64,000 bases of DNA from Parietichytrium sp. I65-24A. Its lineage: Eukaryota > Sar > Bigyra > Thraustochytrida > Thraustochytriidae. Each line of letters opens with the position of its first letter. Position 1 is the first letter of the stretch. The stretch is from NCBI GenBank assembly GCA_012862575.1, contig BLSF01000004.1, positions 434,001 through 498,000 on the forward strand, in the 5' to 3' direction. The notes under the pieces were generated by a model that was not told the origin of the DNA, did not search any database, and worked only from the letters and a program-made list of their open reading frames with translations. Shown here in pieces: positions 1,929 to 46,856 of the stretch. Made by a program: the position numbers and the translations under genes.

Positions 1929-4312
1929 GGTCTCTCTGTGCACCTCTTCTGCGTCCGCTTTGTACGTCCTTCTCTTCTCCTCTTCTTCTCTTTTCACACT
2001 TTCACATTGGTGTCACCGACTTTAACTCACTTCACTGTGCGCCAATATGGTTTCGCTACGGTATCGATAGGACACGCTAGTCTCTGTGTTCGCAGCTAGC
2101 TAGCGAGCTCTTAGGGATCCTGACTGTCCCTCGCTATCACTTGCTATCCCTCATTAGCTTTTCTCAGCTACGGCCGCTGCAGTATCTTTGGTGTGATCGC
2201 TAGGGTAGATGGTAGATGGTAGATGGGCGTTAGGCCCTTGCGAATCTACGATGACGTCATCGGGGGAGTAAGAGGGATTATGTACTGTTTGGCGGGATTG
2301 CGTCTGTAACGGTCGGCGGCGCGCGCATTGGGGACGAGGGGCGGTAGGACCTTGGGTTGGAGAAGCGTAGATGGGCAGTAGGAGTGGAGGAGGCGGAGTG
2401 GAGAGGGAGGAAGGGAGGGACTTTTTGGGCTTTTGGGAAGTTGGCGCATCTTTCTACCTTTTCTAAACTTCTAAAATTGTTCACAATCTTCCGAGTTCAG
2501 AATAATTGAGAATTCTCAGTCAGGATCCTTCCTTCCCCATCAGTTATTGACGACGGCCCATCGAGAATTTAGGTGCGCTCAGAATTCAGAACTCTGTGAA
2601 GCGTTTTGCGCTTCCCCTTTTTTCATTGCTGCTTTGCTTGCTTCACTGGTTAAGTTCGAATTTCAATCCAATAATGAACGAAGTCCATGCTTGCCTTGGA
2701 GACATTTCTGCGTCGACTTCGATGTGAAAAGTGCGAAAATCTGCAGGACAAGTACTGAATGAGCTTTGGCCAGTACTGTCAGCCGCAACGCAAGCGCGTG
2801 GTGAGTGTAACTTATACTTTGCTTGAGGATGCTTGAGGTCCGAGGAGCGTCGACGGCAAGTATCAAGATCCGCAGAGCCCAGATCTACTGGTTACGGTAC
2901 TCACAGTGTAAGTCACTTGGTGCTGGATGGAATATACCCTCTCTCGTCCCGGAGTGGTGGAAAGGAGGGACATTGCAACCCTCGCTCAGTCCAATATATC
3001 TTCAACGGACTTTTCATCGTATAGTTGGTTTGGAGTGAAAGAAATGCCCTTGTGACTCGTTCTCTCGTTTCTCTCCGAAAAGAAAAGCTGGTGTTATTTT
3101 GCTGAATTCGGCAAAATTTACTTCTGTTAATCGCAAGGACATATGCGTCGCCGAGCGTCGAGTCATTGATGGCCGAGCACCAGAATCTTCTTGGCCAAGT
3201 ACCAAAACGGACAGAATCGTGCAAGCTGAAATATTCAGAATCGGCAGAATTCAGATGAAAAGCCAACATTGAGCAGGCACTTACTTCAACACCAGGGGGA
3301 TTTGTTCAAGCCTTGCCGATTTCTTGCGGACTGGGAACCTGTTTTTCGCAGGAATCACCGGCACTGGAACTCTCTGAGAATGTGAGTCTTCAGCCGGCCG
3401 GGGCTGACCCGTGATTGTTGAACCCTTGATTCTGCCCAGCGATGTGCCGCACTCAGTGACACACCGTCTCTTAGTATCTCACGATGCCGGCCTTGGAAAG
3501 GCAAATCTCGTCCGCGGTTCCTTTGATCGTCCTCTTCATGTGAAAAGCATCCCGGTAATCCAGAGGTAGCTTTCGTGTCTCCAGCCGGTGCCCATCGTCT
3601 TTTGAGTTCTCGGGAATTCTTAGGACCCATTGGCGGTAAAAACAACCGCAAGGGTTGCCAAAAAGACATGAGATTGCAGGAGAGGCTCCGCATTGAGATT
3701 GCCAAGTTTGCAACTCCTCGGCGGTAAACGGGCGATGGTGAGAACCAAACTATTCTTCACGTTCTCACCGGAAGTAAACCCGGCAATTCATTTCAAGAGA
3801 GTGCAAATTCTTTTTCCTCCAGCTAGTAAGCCTCCACACCTGTCAAGTCTAGACTAGAACCAAACCAATGCGGAAGGAACAACCGGTCGACCATCCCCGG
3901 ACAAGTCCAGTACATGCAAAATTTACCATGCCACGCTATCCCGTCGCCAGTACTCTGTCTCTCCCGCGCACATGCCCGCGTCATGGTCTTTCCCATCGAA
4001 TCTCCCAACATCCCCAAACTCCTCATCCTGAATGGACAAAGTGAAAAAGTTTCTATCTTTGCAATCTTTCCATTCCGAGTCCAAGAGTCTTTGCCTGACT
4101 CAGACCCAACCAACCCAACCCTTCTTGCTAACATTGCTAACAGTAGACTTACTTGAAAATTCTGCGTCCTACACTTCTCGCTATGCATGCACTACCAGCA
4201 CTAGCACTCACAGTCAACCACATTTAGTTGGAAGGTAGACAGACAAAGATTAGATAGATTGACAGATAGAAGATGGGATGGAAAGAAGGAAAGTGTGTGC
4301 GACATGGCGAGT

Positions 4313-24611: not shown

Positions 24612-25307
24612 TCACTTGGAGTCCCAGAAAGGTCTCTGACCACCGCCAGCTGTCTGCGCAGTTCGTCTGGGTCGCTCGGAGTGAATGCCTTCGTCCTCAT
24701 CGTCTTCTTCGTCCAACGTACGCTCGCGCTGTGCCTGGAATATCTGCGACGCTGTCGACACTATTGAGCCCATTGTTTCTAGATTTTTTGCCCAGCCTTG
24801 TAGCCGTGATCTTGGTGGTGATTCATCGCTTGAAGAAGAGCGGGGTTCGCGCTCGCTCGACCGGGAGCGCGACGAGCTCCACAGTCCGTCCACAAAGAGA
24901 ACAGCGGACGCTAAAGAATGCAAAAAGTTCTCTCTGTGTTCAAATTCGATTCCCTGCTCCCTGCCGTACTGCTGCATCGCCTCTGCAAACATTTCGAATG
25001 CCTGCTCGACCGTCAAATCCACAGTGGCCCTGTTAGGATCCCCTGGCTGCGTTCCGCGTTTGGAGCGGATGTCATAATCACGCTTTTTCGCCGGGTCGCT
25101 CAAGGTGTCGTACGCCTCTGCAACGCGCTGAAAGGCTTCAGTCGCTTGTGGATGTCCAGATTTGTCTGGATGGCATTGCATGCTCCGCTTCAAGTACGCT
25201 TTCCGCAAGTTCGAGCTGGACGCATCTTCGAACGTGCACCCGAGAATCTCATACAGCGATCTCGCGCGCAGAATCTCATCGATCGGTGTATTCCCCGCTC
25301 CCGCCAT
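24612..25307 (-). CDS. Small J-domain (DnaJ/Hsp40) protein
   Basis: Co-chaperone that should stimulate an Hsp70 ATPase. 231 residues from the ATG at 25307; the frame extends upstream through a repeat that belongs to the leader. The J domain covers about residues 16-85: SLYEILGCTFEDASSSNLRK, then KRSMQCHPDKSGHPQATEAF with the essential HPD, then AYDTLSDPAKKRDYD. No Gly/Phe, zinc-finger or CTD region follows, so it is a class C J protein. The middle (TVEQAFEMFAEAMQQYG) is helical. A Ser/Arg/Glu-rich segment and an acidic stretch (TLDEEDDEDEG) lead to the C-terminus FWDSK. No signal peptide or membrane segment is seen, which suggests cytosol or nucleus. Confidence 0.92.
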   Translation of the reverse strand: MAGAGNTPIDEILRARSLYEILGCTFEDASSSNLRKAYLKRSMQCHPDKSGHPQATEAFQRVAEAYDTLSDPAKKRDYDIRSKRGTQPGDPNRATVDLTVEQAFEMFAEAMQQYGREQGIEFEHRENFLHSLASAVLFVDGLWSSSRSRSSEREPRSSSSDESPPRSRLQGWAKNLETMGSIVSTASQIFQAQRERTLDEEDDEDEGIHSERPRRTAQTAGGGQRPFWDSK

Positions 25308-29491: not shown

Positions 29492-32400
29492 ATGGCAGCC
29501 GTTCTCGTGGCGCGGAGACGCGCAGAGCTGGAGGCAAGGCGATTAGATTCTGATGGATTGAGCGCGTATGAAATCCTTGGGATGCCATCGCCTCGGTCTG
29601 CGTCGTCGATCAAGAACGCCGCAGCTGATGATGAAAGGAGCGAGTCAAGAGCCACTGCGACAAAAGGGCAGGAATCTGAGCAGCATGGCGGCTCATCGGG
29701 CGTATCTAGCGCTGTGGTGGCCTCTCAGGCTGTCGCGGATGATGATACCGAGACAAGTTCAGAAAAGACAGAGTCGGAATCGCTTGCTAAGAGGTTTCGC
29801 CGACAGCTAGATTTCTGGAAACGTAGCAGAGAGCTCGTGGCCGATGGTGGCCAGAGAGCCGAGGCTAAAGTGCGAGAGGCCTTTGCGACAGTTGCGACGG
29901 CAAAAGGCAGGCGAATCTACGATGTTCTTATGACCAATAACAGGCGCACCACTTTCTCGCATGGGGTTAGCGGGATGTTGCTTGGTGAGGATGCGATGTA
30001 TGGAAGAATCACTCGCCCGCTCGTGCGCGCGAGAGGAAGGGTCGATGTGCGCCTGCCCCCTCTCATCCTGGTTGGTATGGAAGGTGAGGGAAAATCTGCG
30101 CTCGCGGAACGAATAGCTCTCCGGCGCGTTTTCCCAGCCCGCGGGACACGGTTTCCACTGAGACTCATGCTACGACAAAGTGCACATGAAAATGTTGCGT
30201 ACGTGCGGGCGATGGACGTCGAGCATGACACGACTATAGAATTACAGGATTCGGTGGCGCCGGAGTCCTCGCTTCAGAAGAAGCAGGGCGAGAGTTTACC
30301 AGCTGAGACTGACGCTGACGAGCAATCTTTTAGCGCTTCCACGGCGCGGCCAATAAGCAAAAATGAATATGTTGTTCGGAATGAGCTTCCGGCAACTATG
30401 GACGCTGAAATATGCGCGCAAGTGGAGAAAATACAATCGATGCTGGAGAAATTGGAAACATCAAAAGCATCAGACGAAGCACACGCTACCGCGAGCAAGG
30501 TGGAGATTCAGGTTGAAATCCGTGCCCCCAACTTGCCAACAGTGGACATCATCGACTTGCCTGGTATTGTACAGTACCCCCTTGCGCCTGCGAAAATCAC
30601 GGCTGACGTTGCTCGGCGCTACTTGACGGAAGAAAAGCAGTGCGTCGCGATTGCTGTTGTGTCGGGATTGTCTCAGAATTCAAAGAACAGTGCAATGTGG
30701 AGAGCCCTTCGCGAGCGCCCTCAACATTCCCAGGCTGGGGCAAATAAGGTGTCCAACCTCATTGTTGCGCTTACCATGGTCGACAAGGCGGAGGATACAC
30801 AAAACCTTGCATCGCGCCTTTCTTCCCGTACAGACTTGCCCGCCGATACAGGGCCCGCCCAATTGGTTCCGGTGGTCAACTGCTGGGACAACAACATGGA
30901 CGACCGCACTCAGGACACAGACTCGAGCGACCGTGTCTGCGGTGGTTCGGGTACTGGCAGCGAAAGCGGTGCCAGCCAGACGCAACCACTTGCGCAGCCT
31001 GTAGTCGAGGCGAGACCAGAGAGCGAACAGGACCAGGAAGACGAACCCGATAACAGTGAGGACGCGAAGGACTGGTCAAAGTTTGGGGACGGATTCAAGC
31101 GGGAGGCGTCTATATTGCTTGAACTGTGCCAGAAGCATGGGGTGGACTATAGTCCGGAGACCATGGGAATCACCGGAGTAATGGTCGCGCTTGATAACAT
31201 ATTTCACAGACACATTTTGGAACACTGGGTGGCAACAGACCAGCTCAGGTGTGACACCGAAAAGAAATATGTAGTGGCAGAAAAGAAGAAGTTGGGTCGT
31301 GAGCCTTCCACAGTGACGTGGGCCGCTGTGAAGGTTGAGCTGGAGAAAGGTCAGCGCCGATTTTTGGAACACGATACCGATGAGCTCATCGAGCGCGAAG
31401 CTGAGCGGCTTCGTGCAAGCTACCGCGTCCCGAGTACAGCATCCAATTGGTCGCTTCTGCAGAGAGCCAGGTGGAAGCTTTTGATGAAGGAAGGGCTCCA
31501 TCAGAATGGGAGATCTTATGCTTTGTTGCATGAACAGCTGGATCGGGTGTGGGACGACATGGAGTCGCTCTTTTTCGCTAAGGCTGTGATGGAATCTCAA
31601 CCTCCGGTGCTCCTGCAGCGCTTCTCAGAGATTGTTGCATATCTGTTGAGCTTTTACAAGGAGGTGTACGAGCAAGAGTTGCCGGCTATGCGCGAGCGAA
31701 TGATATCAAAGGTGGAGCAGCTGTTGGAAGGTACTTTTGCAGATTATGAGGAAAGAATTGACTGGGACGGTCTTTTCACGACTTGGGCGCTGAGAGCAAT
31801 CGTGGAGGTTGCAGATGCTCACGTGAAAGGACTCTTTCAATTGAAAATCCAGTATTTCCGGAAGATTGAACAGGAGCTGGGCGAAAAATCTTTTAACGAA
31901 GACGAGGAAACTACGTTGCGACGATTGGATCTGGATAAACGAACTTCGTCTTTGGACCAACTTGAGCGTGTTTTAAAGCCGCTTTTGAAGGAGCTTGGCC
32001 CGCTGCACCTCTCCGTTGTATCCTCACATCAGCAACAACAATCTAAAAGCAACATGTCTTCTGCAGCTTCCGTTTCCTCCGCTTCTTCATCGCGGAAGGA
32101 AGAGAAAGAACGACAGCCAAGACACGGCAAGGAAAGGGACAACAGCTCGGCCGTTGCGTCTGGGAGAGATCGCAAACCGGCGGGTCACGGAGAGCGAGGC
32201 ACTAGCGGGAAATCCAAGGACGGCTCAGAGCAAGCGGAGCCGAGCGAGAACGATCGGAACGCTCGCAACCGACGCCGCGGGGGGGACAATCACAGTCAGC
32301 ACCTGCAGCAGCAGCAGACTCAACACCACCAACAGGATCAACAGCAAATGGCCCCTCAAATCTTACACCAGCAACATCAGATGCTCTTGCAGCAGCACCA

Positions 32401-33208
32401 GGCTGTTTCCGAGCTGTCTCCGCTGGCGTCAGCATATGCGCCGCAGAGCACCTATGGGCAAGCAGCCGCTGGTGCAGAGAACAGTGGCAGCGGTCGGAGC
32501 GCATTCCCGACAGTGAGTATTCCAAATATTTGGGGGAGTGGTGCGTCTTTCCAATTTACACCGACCTCGACCAACTCGCCCGGGCCGGAGGATTCGCCAG
32601 GGTTCTCGCCGTCTGGGTCGCTGAGGTCGCCATTCCAATTGTATGGCTCTGGGACGACGTCATACTTTGGCCACCATCGCGCCGAGGACGAGTCAGAGGG
32701 TGATCGCTGGCCGGGTGATTCGACGCCGTTCTCGGTGCGGTCCTCGGGCCAAATGCAAGGTGTGGCAGCTCCGCTGTCCAGATCGGCATCGACTGGCCAC
32801 TCACAAGATCTTCATACTAGTTCATACTACATGTCTTCTTCGTCACCTTTCGCGGCGGAGCACAGCCCATCCTCGTTCTCGTCGTTGGGTTCCCCGGCTT
32901 CAAATGTGTGGAATGTCGGCCCGCCGCCAGGATTTGTGTACGGTCAAGCACAGTCTGAACTTTCCCCGCATCGGGGAGCTAGGCAACCATTGAGTTCGTC
33001 CATGCAGCGGCATCTTCAACAACAGCAGCAGCAACAACAACAACAGATGAACGCGTTTACGCAGCACCAACAACAGCCTTCTTCCCAAACACAGCGCTTC
33101 CACCCGTATTCTTCTTCAGCCTCGCAGCAGAAGGCGCAACAGCAGGCAGACTCACAGCAACATCAGCAACGCTCGCAATCATCGCATTTCGCGCCTAACC
33201 GACGATAG
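29492..33208 (+). CDS. J-like domain fused to a dynamin-like GTPase with Gln-rich tail
   Basis: Large GTPase, 1238 residues, one exon, ATG at 29492. Dynamin-superfamily motifs: G1 GMEGEGKS at residues 195-202, G2 region RGTRFPLRLML, G3 DLPGI at 355-359, G4-like TMVDKAE at 428-434 where the usual TKxD has M in place of K. The G domain carries an acidic coiled-coil insert between G2 and G3 and a low-complexity insert after G4. Helical stalk-like sequence follows to about residue 835. The N-terminus resembles the first and last parts of a J domain: AYEILGMPSP at 25-34 and REAFATVATAKGRRIYD at 128-144, split by a low-complexity stretch and without HPD. The last 400 residues are disordered, Ser/Gln-rich, with a run of nine or ten Gln near 33018-33047. 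No PH domain or transmembrane segment is seen. Membrane remodelling is the family role; the exact job here is unknown. Confidence 0.9.
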   Translation: MAAVLVARRRAELEARRLDSDGLSAYEILGMPSPRSASSIKNAAADDERSESRATATKGQESEQHGGSSGVSSAVVASQAVADDDTETSSEKTESESLAKRFRRQLDFWKRSRELVADGGQRAEAKVREAFATVATAKGRRIYDVLMTNNRRTTFSHGVSGMLLGEDAMYGRITRPLVRARGRVDVRLPPLILVGMEGEGKSALAERIALRRVFPARGTRFPLRLMLRQSAHENVAYVRAMDVEHDTTIELQDSVAPESSLQKKQGESLPAETDADEQSFSASTARPISKNEYVVRNELPATMDAEICAQVEKIQSMLEKLETSKASDEAHATASKVEIQVEIRAPNLPTVDIIDLPGIVQYPLAPAKITADVARRYLTEEKQCVAIAVVSGLSQNSKNSAMWRALRERPQHSQAGANKVSNLIVALTMVDKAEDTQNLASRLSSRTDLPADTGPAQLVPVVNCWDNNMDDRTQDTDSSDRVCGGSGTGSESGASQTQPLAQPVVEARPESEQDQEDEPDNSEDAKDWSKFGDGFKREASILLELCQKHGVDYSPETMGITGVMVALDNIFHRHILEHWVATDQLRCDTEKKYVVAEKKKLGREPSTVTWAAVKVELEKGQRRFLEHDTDELIEREAERLRASYRVPSTASNWSLLQRARWKLLMKEGLHQNGRSYALLHEQLDRVWDDMESLFFAKAVMESQPPVLLQRFSEIVAYLLSFYKEVYEQELPAMRERMISKVEQLLEGTFADYEERIDWDGLFTTWALRAIVEVADAHVKGLFQLKIQYFRKIEQELGEKSFNEDEETTLRRLDLDKRTSSLDQLERVLKPLLKELGPLHLSVVSSHQQQQSKSNMSSAASVSSASSSRKEEKERQPRHGKERDNSSAVASGRDRKPAGHGERGTSGKSKDGSEQAEPSENDRNARNRRRGGDNHSQHLQQQQTQHHQQDQQQMAPQILHQQHQMLLQQHQAVSELSPLASAYAPQSTYGQAAAGAENSGSGRSAFPTVSIPNIWGSGASFQFTPTSTNSPGPEDSPGFSPSGSLRSPFQLYGSGTTSYFGHHRAEDESEGDRWPGDSTPFSVRSSGQMQGVAAPLSRSASTGHSQDLHTSSYYMSSSSPFAAEHSPSSFSSLGSPASNVWNVGPPPGFVYGQAQSELSPHRGARQPLSSSMQRHLQQQQQQQQQQMNAFTQHQQQPSSQTQRFHPYSSSASQQKAQQQADSQQHQQRSQSSHFAPNRR
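33018..33050 (+). repeat. CAA/CAG run encoding polyglutamine
   Basis: Mixed CAA and CAG codons give about ten consecutive Gln residues in the disordered tail of the dynamin-like protein. More Gln clusters lie at 32305-32400 and 33070-33180. Mixing of codons suggests selection on the protein rather than simple slippage. Confidence 0.85.
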
Positions 33209-45935: not shown

Positions 45936-46856
45936 TCAGCGCCGTGTTAGTCTAATCCAAGCGTTTCGCATGATTGTCCAGGCCACATGAGGAGGCAAGT
46001 TGCGCAAAAAGAAGATCGCAAAGACCCCAAGAAATCGCAAAGCTGCTCCCACGAGACCGGGAAAGCGAAACGCCACAGCGAATGGCAGGACAACAGAGAG
46101 GATCAAACCTTTGCGCTCTTTTGCAAAATCCCAGGCAAATGAATAGTCTCCGTGGCGCGCGGCCTGAAGCGCCGTGGATGCTTCACTCTTGACAGTGTCA
46201 AAGTACTCCTTGAGACCAAGATCCTGCCACACCTTCTCGAACACTTGACGAGCAAAATCATCCGCGGATTCTGGAGCCCCGCTCGCGGAGTTGTAGCTCT
46301 GATTAAAATGCTGCTCGTTCCCGTGTCGCCCGGTCGCATCGTACGTTCTTCGCTTATCGGCATCGCCAAGGACCTCGTAAGCTGCTGCAATCCTATGAAA
46401 CTGCACGCGAGCATTTGGGTTCCCAGGGTTCAAATCAGGATGGTATTTCTTAGCGAGGCGGAAGTACGCTTTCTTAATTTCTCCATGCGATGCCGAACGA
46501 TCTACTTCTAAGATTCTGTACAAATTTTCATCTTGTTTAAAAAACGACCGCCACTGGGTCACATCTCTGTACGCGCCGTGCGATGGACCTGTCACCCGCC
46601 TTCGTACTAGTCCCAAAGGATCTCGAGGGTCGAGTGCCGCCCCAGTTCTCCAAACAGACACCGACAGCGGCCTCCACTGGCTGCCAGCATTCCCTAACAG
46701 CCTATTTTGATTCCCCACAAACCCTGTGCGCAAGACGCCCCTGGTGAGGGACCCTCCAGCGTACGAATGTGCGAGAGTTTGCCGTGTGGAAAACTGCGAA
46801 ACAGCGCCAAGAGCCTGGCCTGAGGCCAACAATCTCTGCTGCAACCGACCAAGCAT
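45936..46856 (-). CDS. Mitochondrial J-domain protein with C-terminal membrane segments
   Basis: 306 residues from the ATG at 46856 (MLGRLQQRLLASGQALGAVS). The frame extends to 46907 only through a TTG. The N-terminus is rich in Arg, Leu, Ser and Ala with no acidic residue, like a mitochondrial presequence. The J domain lies at about residues 109-175: LYRILEVDRSASHGEIKKAY, KYHPDLNPGNPNARVQFHRI with the essential HPD, and AYEVLGDADKRRTYD. Its best likeness is to the DnaJ/DnaJA3 type. A DDFARQVFEKVWQDLG segment follows, and then hydrophobic stretches near the C-terminus (LILSVVLPFAVAFRF, ALRFLGVFAIFFL) suggest anchoring in the inner membrane. There is no zinc finger or substrate-binding CTD. 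It probably recruits mitochondrial Hsp70 at a membrane. Confidence 0.9.
   Translation of the reverse strand: MLGRLQQRLLASGQALGAVSQFSTRQTLAHSYAGGSLTRGVLRTGFVGNQNRLLGNAGSQWRPLSVSVWRTGAALDPRDPLGLVRRRVTGPSHGAYRDVTQWRSFFKQDENLYRILEVDRSASHGEIKKAYFRLAKKYHPDLNPGNPNARVQFHRIAAAYEVLGDADKRRTYDATGRHGNEQHFNQSYNSASGAPESADDFARQVFEKVWQDLGLKEYFDTVKSEASTALQAARHGDYSFAWDFAKERKGLILSVVLPFAVAFRFPGLVGAALRFLGVFAIFFLRNLPPHVAWTIMRNAWIRLTRR

Follow-up and report, generated by a model that had tools for sequence, protein, structure and literature searches.

A dynamin-superfamily GTPase family with an apparent HPD-less J-like N-terminal domain and exchangeable tails in Parietichytrium sp. I65-24A

The auxilin-type J domain and dynamin both serve clathrin-coated vesicles, where they are separate proteins, and the J domain of auxilin carries the HPD (His-Pro-Asp) motif. 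According to the available text of PMC3196505, CJD1 has a J-like domain without HPD that interacts with ARC6. In two-hybrid assays this domain showed no signal with either of two chloroplast Hsp70s, and it did not complement an E. coli dnaJ cbpA strain; the same text cites Tim16 as contacting Tim14. One plastid division apparatus contains both ARC6 and the dynamin ARC5/DRP5B, again as separate proteins, in the available text of PMC5821325. Here we describe a gene at 29492..33208 on the plus strand of a 64,000-nucleotide stretch of the thraustochytrid Parietichytrium sp. I65-24A (contig BLSF01000004.1, positions 434,001 to 498,000; hereafter the window), in which a J-like domain and a dynamin-like GTPase look to be genuinely paired on one chain. 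No description of this pairing was found in open-licence papers searched by title and the start of the abstract. CJD1, ARC6 and Tim16/Pam16 resemble the N-terminal part of the window protein in that their J-type pattern lacks HPD, as is stated for CJD1, and is used in protein-protein contact; they differ from it in that no GTPase fusion is described for them in the available text of PMC3196505.

The gene is a single ATG-to-stop frame of 1238 amino acids (open reading frame (ORF) listing and translation), with an in-frame stop upstream of its ATG at a gap of two codons. A preliminary description made from the letters alone had read in this frame dynamin G1 and G3 motifs, a G4 motif with Met in place of Lys, an AYEILG...GRRIYD pair resembling the two ends of a J domain but split by low-complexity sequence and lacking HPD, and a Ser/Gln-rich tail of about 400 residues, and each of these elements was recovered (Table 1). 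AYEILG begins at residue 25 and GRRIYD at residue 139, with low-complexity sequence between them, and a motif search of the translation found no HPD in the window protein. The nucleotide pattern CAYCCNGAY occurs at five sites within the window and at none inside the gene.

We searched the organism's own genome, a 42.5-Mb assembly of 172 contigs that is eukaryotic in size and in content (a myosin head, for example), and found six long paralog ORFs (C14, 1074 amino acids; C41, 1259; C82, 1511; C106, 1161; C79, 754; C93, 1080) together with further partial matches at C117 (two), C34, C110 (two, one of them weak) and C55. Over the GTPase and the stalk, five of the paralogs share 59-91% identity with the C14 copy, and identity between the window copy and the six is 27-29%. 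We built an unrooted tree from 17 GTPase rows selected from the same genome, with some search matches left out; one branch, supported at 100/100, has the window protein and its six paralogs together on the same side. The terminal branch of the window protein was long (1.47), and its top identity to any paralog among these rows was 36% over 245 columns. The own-genome search also gave weak matches to ordinary dynamins on C25, C50 and C7. As judged from sequence, GTPase homology, conserved G motifs, an HPD-less J-like pattern in all seven proteins, their grouping together and the replacement of one tail by another are evident, and we consider it likely that the window gene represents a family of dynamin-superfamily GTPases in which an HPD-less J-like domain serves for docking and the interaction tail is exchangeable.

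Dynamin_N was recognised above its cut-off in the window protein and was found in all seven aligned members (among the 25 of 41 Pfam families listed). As a lone query against the PDB the window protein gave weak matches, the best being OPA1 (E 0.01), and a profile of the seven GTPase-plus-stalk regions matched Drp1 (4e-18) and Vps1 (2.9e-16). By sequence comparison, the GTPase is thus nearest to Drp1 and Vps1 among solved structures: profile positions 21-288 match Drp1 and 30-284 match Vps1, with the P-loop, the switch Thr and DLPG kept. The family differs from both proteins in its added N-terminal J-like block, in the Met of G4 and in its Gln-rich or armadillo tail, and also in that its stalk is not recognised by sequence. 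Residues ~540-836 gave seven matches to paralog loci in the own-genome protein search (E 1.4e-9 to 5.1e-4) and had no Pfam match of their own; Dynamin_M and GED were not among the Pfam families listed for the window protein. The best PDB stretch of the family profile stopped at position 288 of 565, and the hhalign alignment to own-genome dynamins stopped at column 335 of 564. A single-sequence AlphaFold model of residues 157-836 showed this stretch as mostly helical at very low confidence (mean predicted local distance difference test score, pLDDT, 34.4). The region that follows the GTPase probably acts as a dynamin stalk.

Within their first 90 residues the paralogs carry a compact N-terminal block, HTAFEILRLD...VTSAFxAAxERASD...RRIREAYETLRTEARRNGY, with no low-complexity insert, in which J helices I, II and III follow in order, the loop between helices II and III is shortened and HPD is absent. 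Each of the six has HPD once in the GTPase domain, between G1 and G3, and two have a second HPD near or in the repeats; none has HPD in its first 200 residues. An hhalign comparison of the six-paralog N-terminal profile with 30 own-genome J domains gave a probability of 69% and a score of 27.4 over 55 columns, running from helix I to past helix III. The best of 200 column shuffles reached 19.2 and the reversed profile 10.4. When the J profile was run against 25 slices of the family GTPase-stalk alignment the best score was 19.3, which may owe to the chance HPD of the GTPase domain that the top slices span; when the N-terminal profile was run against 42 own-genome dynamin slices the best was 13.5. 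In the PDB the N-terminal profile had DNAJB9 as its top match (E 0.02), which was confined to profile positions 49-86, the helix III part.

Of the 62 own-genome J-domain matches, 30 were used to build a hidden Markov model (HMM). On residues 1-160 of the window protein it scored 12.3 bits in two pieces (Table 1), and composition shuffles reached the real score in 0 of 5000 trials for the window protein and five of the six paralogs and in 1 of 5000 for the sixth, where the roughly one quarter of shuffles that returned no score were counted as lower. Among 2380 segments of 90 amino acids, drawn from the seven family proteins and eight other dynamin-like frames, the best 45 listed came without exception from paralog N-termini, with five of the six represented and scores of up to 15.4 bits, and the best segment from outside N-terminal regions had 5.3 bits. 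The N-terminus of the remaining paralog scored 9.8 bits in the shuffle test with the J HMM. The window copy would carry a degenerate J-type domain stretched by a low-complexity insert, whose position was set by comparing the J HMM matches with the compact paralog block; MAFFT places the insert uncleanly. Absence of the N-terminal match from close relatives would have spoken against the preliminary description, and all six full-length paralogs proved to carry such a block. Its proposed pairing of a J-like domain with a dynamin therefore stands in so far as the block scores above controls in all six, with the reservation that the match is remote and passes the DnaJ cut-off in no copy.

Several observations weigh against a J-domain origin of the block or against the docking family as a whole. 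Pfam DnaJ stayed below its cut-off everywhere (best 16.5 bits against 27.8), nothing was listed when Pfam was run on window residues 1-160 alone, and the J HMM E-values, for a search space of 20000, ranged from 0.022 to 1.1 (window, 0.14) with none at the inclusion threshold. The 90-residue segments of the window copy lay outside the best 45 of the 2380. The paralog N-terminal profile scored 3.0 bits on the full window N-terminus, a value reached by 354 of 5000 shuffles, and 4.2 bits on its best piece (residues 125-144), reached by 89 of 5000; since direct similarity between the window and paralog N-termini is this weak, homology of the domain rests mainly on its position and on the shared match to the J profile. 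The structure models of both segments were unusable at their confidence, that of residues 1-190 having a mean pLDDT of 53.6 with helices at 2-20, 25-28 and 34-37 and a long helix at 90-151. No membrane-binding domain was identified in the protein. In addition, other Pfam models came close to DnaJ: in the six paralogs DnaJ had a best E of 0.012 (two of six), RPT 0.019 (two of six) and HTH_63 0.036 (one of six), so that RPT matched at E-values similar to those of DnaJ.

These results bear directly on a different identity for the N-terminus, namely a short helical domain of some other kind, such as RPT (PF13446, described as 'a repeated domain in UCH-protein'), whose likeness to J domains would be convergent or very remote. 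With shorter sequences and the window protein included, RPT matched three of the seven N-termini weakly (E 0.015, 0.046 and 0.16) and DnaJ two of the seven (0.009 and 0.12), and the two models cover different halves of the block, residues ~17-67 for RPT and ~48-76 for DnaJ. However, RPT was always under its cut-off here (best 15.5 bits against 28.2), and elsewhere in the own genome it had one match, also below cut-off (E 0.75), compared to 62 J-domain matches of which 61 exceeded theirs; moreover, the 55-column hhalign alignment extends across the whole helical order and lies above its controls. A J-like label fits the sequence tests, with RPT as a live alternative that we regard as unlikely. 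On the same evidence the protein is not a member of the J-domain co-chaperones, as it lacks HPD and stays below the Pfam DnaJ cut-off.

Two genes that do encode HPD-bearing J domains flank the window gene, at 24612-25307 (minus strand; Pfam DnaJ 3.7e-20) and 45936-46856 (minus strand; 2.2e-24). From the 62 matches in 42.5 Mb, 0.093 J-domain genes are expected per 64 kb, and the Poisson probability of two or more is 0.004, a value calculated post hoc.

In the C-terminal part the family divides. The tail of the window protein (388 residues) is 19.1% Ser and 14.7% Gln, together 33.8%, includes one run of 10 Gln and is the only Gln-rich tail among the seven family members. Codon-position GC content is flat at ~residues 1001-1200 (0.56/0.58/0.57), and, judged from the DNA alone, an intron may lie inside this low-complexity tail. 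Pfam recognised no Arm repeats in the window copy and recognised them in five of the seven aligned proteins; armadillo tails replace the Gln-rich tail in five of the six full-length paralogs, the C79 copy stopping before any repeats. The repeat spacing is 43 residues in C14, C41 and C82, 45 in C106 and mostly 44 in C93. With a motif pattern that yields lower bounds, complete units numbered at least 6 in C14 (L024), at least 9 in C41 (L025), at least 16 in C82 (L026), at least 8 in C106 (L027) and at least 4 in C93. In the C82 array some units share the same DNA sequence, which points to recent tandem expansion.

Related armadillo units are also found elsewhere in the genome. A 210-residue stretch of C82 had at least 122 matches, family arrays included, with 150 of 198 candidates scored, and such units occur in many other long ORFs, for example C34:58353-63455, C12:136276-141201, C142 and C18. 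A frame that by eye looks kinase-like is found upstream of the C34 array and on its strand. Tetratricopeptide-like ORFs, also identified by eye, adjoin two of the paralogs (L025 6206-7846 and L028 5500-6885, both on the minus strand).

The variation of the arrays lends itself to a second alternative, namely that the family consists of sensors or scaffolds, with the GTPase serving as a switch and recognition of changing partners falling to the variable armadillo array or the Gln-rich tail, perhaps as in immune receptors that carry repeats. Array length differs from copy to copy by the counts given for L024 to L027, units are DNA-identical in one array, related repeats are widespread, and one of the C110 matches, a short fragment standing alone and covering the end of the stalk, can be taken as a relic. 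Within the repeat units, however, pN/pS was 0.57, 0.38 and 0.47 (L024, L025 and L026), which indicates constraint and not diversifying selection, the window copy has no Pfam-recognised Arm at all, and our literature search found no paper that joins dynamin, armadillo repeats and immune receptors. Three pN/pS comparisons of the GTPase region were set aside, two of which (L024-L025 and L025-L026) pair sequences that are not aligned. We hold a role as sensor or scaffold to be decidedly unlikely.

The least probable alternative, a very unlikely one, is that loss of the G4 Lys has left a dead or merely nucleotide-sensing GTPase: the TKxD form was indeed not encountered and TMVD stands in its place in all seven proteins, yet GxExEGKS, the G2 Thr, DLPG and the G4 Asp are invariant across the same seven, FeoB_N was listed for all seven (window, 19.4 bits, below the cut-off of 27), and a FeoB that binds guanine nucleotide, the B. 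fragilis FeoAB fusion in the available text of PMC8980893, has Met at the same place (NMYD), so that a G4 Met need not end nucleotide binding. The substitution is thus a family trait and not damage to one gene.

If the family of docking GTPases is correctly described, the protein would be expected to bind GTP and to assemble via the helical stalk. By analogy with CJD1 and Tim16, the J-like block would be a docking or dimerising module and not an activator of Hsp70. The tail would then choose or concentrate partners at the site of assembly, most likely a membrane; armadillo tails may serve partner binding and the Gln-rich tail self-association. The preliminary description also suggested that the GTPase could be tethered to chaperone or membrane machinery and that the tail could phase-separate, and both ideas are conjectural. 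A more specific and rather doubtful version is that of a lineage-specific, expanding family whose J-like domain docks to or antagonises true J proteins, thereby bringing Hsp70 to dynamin scaffolds or keeping it off them, while the tails serve as a copy-specific address. If the J-like domain does dock to J proteins or to Hsp70 partners, a single polypeptide would link membrane remodelling with chaperone control; with seven copies and two kinds of tail, it would be possible to test separately what the N-terminal domain does and what the tail does.

Table 1. Positions of the window gene and its parts, in window coordinates
Feature	Coordinates	Strand	Evidence
Whole ORF	29492..33208	+	1238 amino acids plus stop; ORF listing, translation
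J-like piece 1, residues 25-43 (AYEILGMPSPRSASSIKNA), corresponding to helix I and the beginning of helix II of J domains	29564..29620	+	J HMM 3.6 bits
Putative low-complexity insert, ~residues 44-96, no paralog counterpart	29621..29779	+	Inferred, boundaries approximate
J-like piece 2, residues 125-152 (KVREAFATVATAKGRRIYD), helix III region	29864..29947	+	J HMM 6.4 bits
Dynamin_N, residues 192-398	30065..30685	+	Pfam 1.2e-8, 35.7 bits, cut-off 27
G1 P-loop GMEGEGKS, residues 195-202	30074..30097	+	GxExEGKS invariant in 7 aligned
G2 threonine T219	30146..30148	+	Invariant in 7 aligned
G3 DLPG, residues 355-358	30554..30565	+	Invariant in 7 aligned
G4 TMVD, residues 428-431, Met replacing dynamin Lys	30773..30784	+	TMVD in 7/7
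Putative helical stalk, ~residues 540-836	31109..31999	+	Paralog matches; low-confidence model
Ser/Gln-rich tail, residues 851-1238	32042..33205	+	Composition

Beyond the own genome, relatives were sought in viral contigs, where 32 pattern-matched stretches gave none confirmed by alignment search, and in prokaryote genome contigs, where 42 such stretches likewise gave none; among these three sets the combination of J-like block and dynamin is so far found in this genome only. Rfam at its gathering threshold returned nothing in the window. The TIGR02813 model, used to look for a PfaA of thraustochytrid type, had 13 matches, all of them below its cut-off. At a separate locus, L065, the frame at 2111-3941 (plus strand) appears by eye to encode an EHD-type GTPase with a FYVE-like zinc finger in front.

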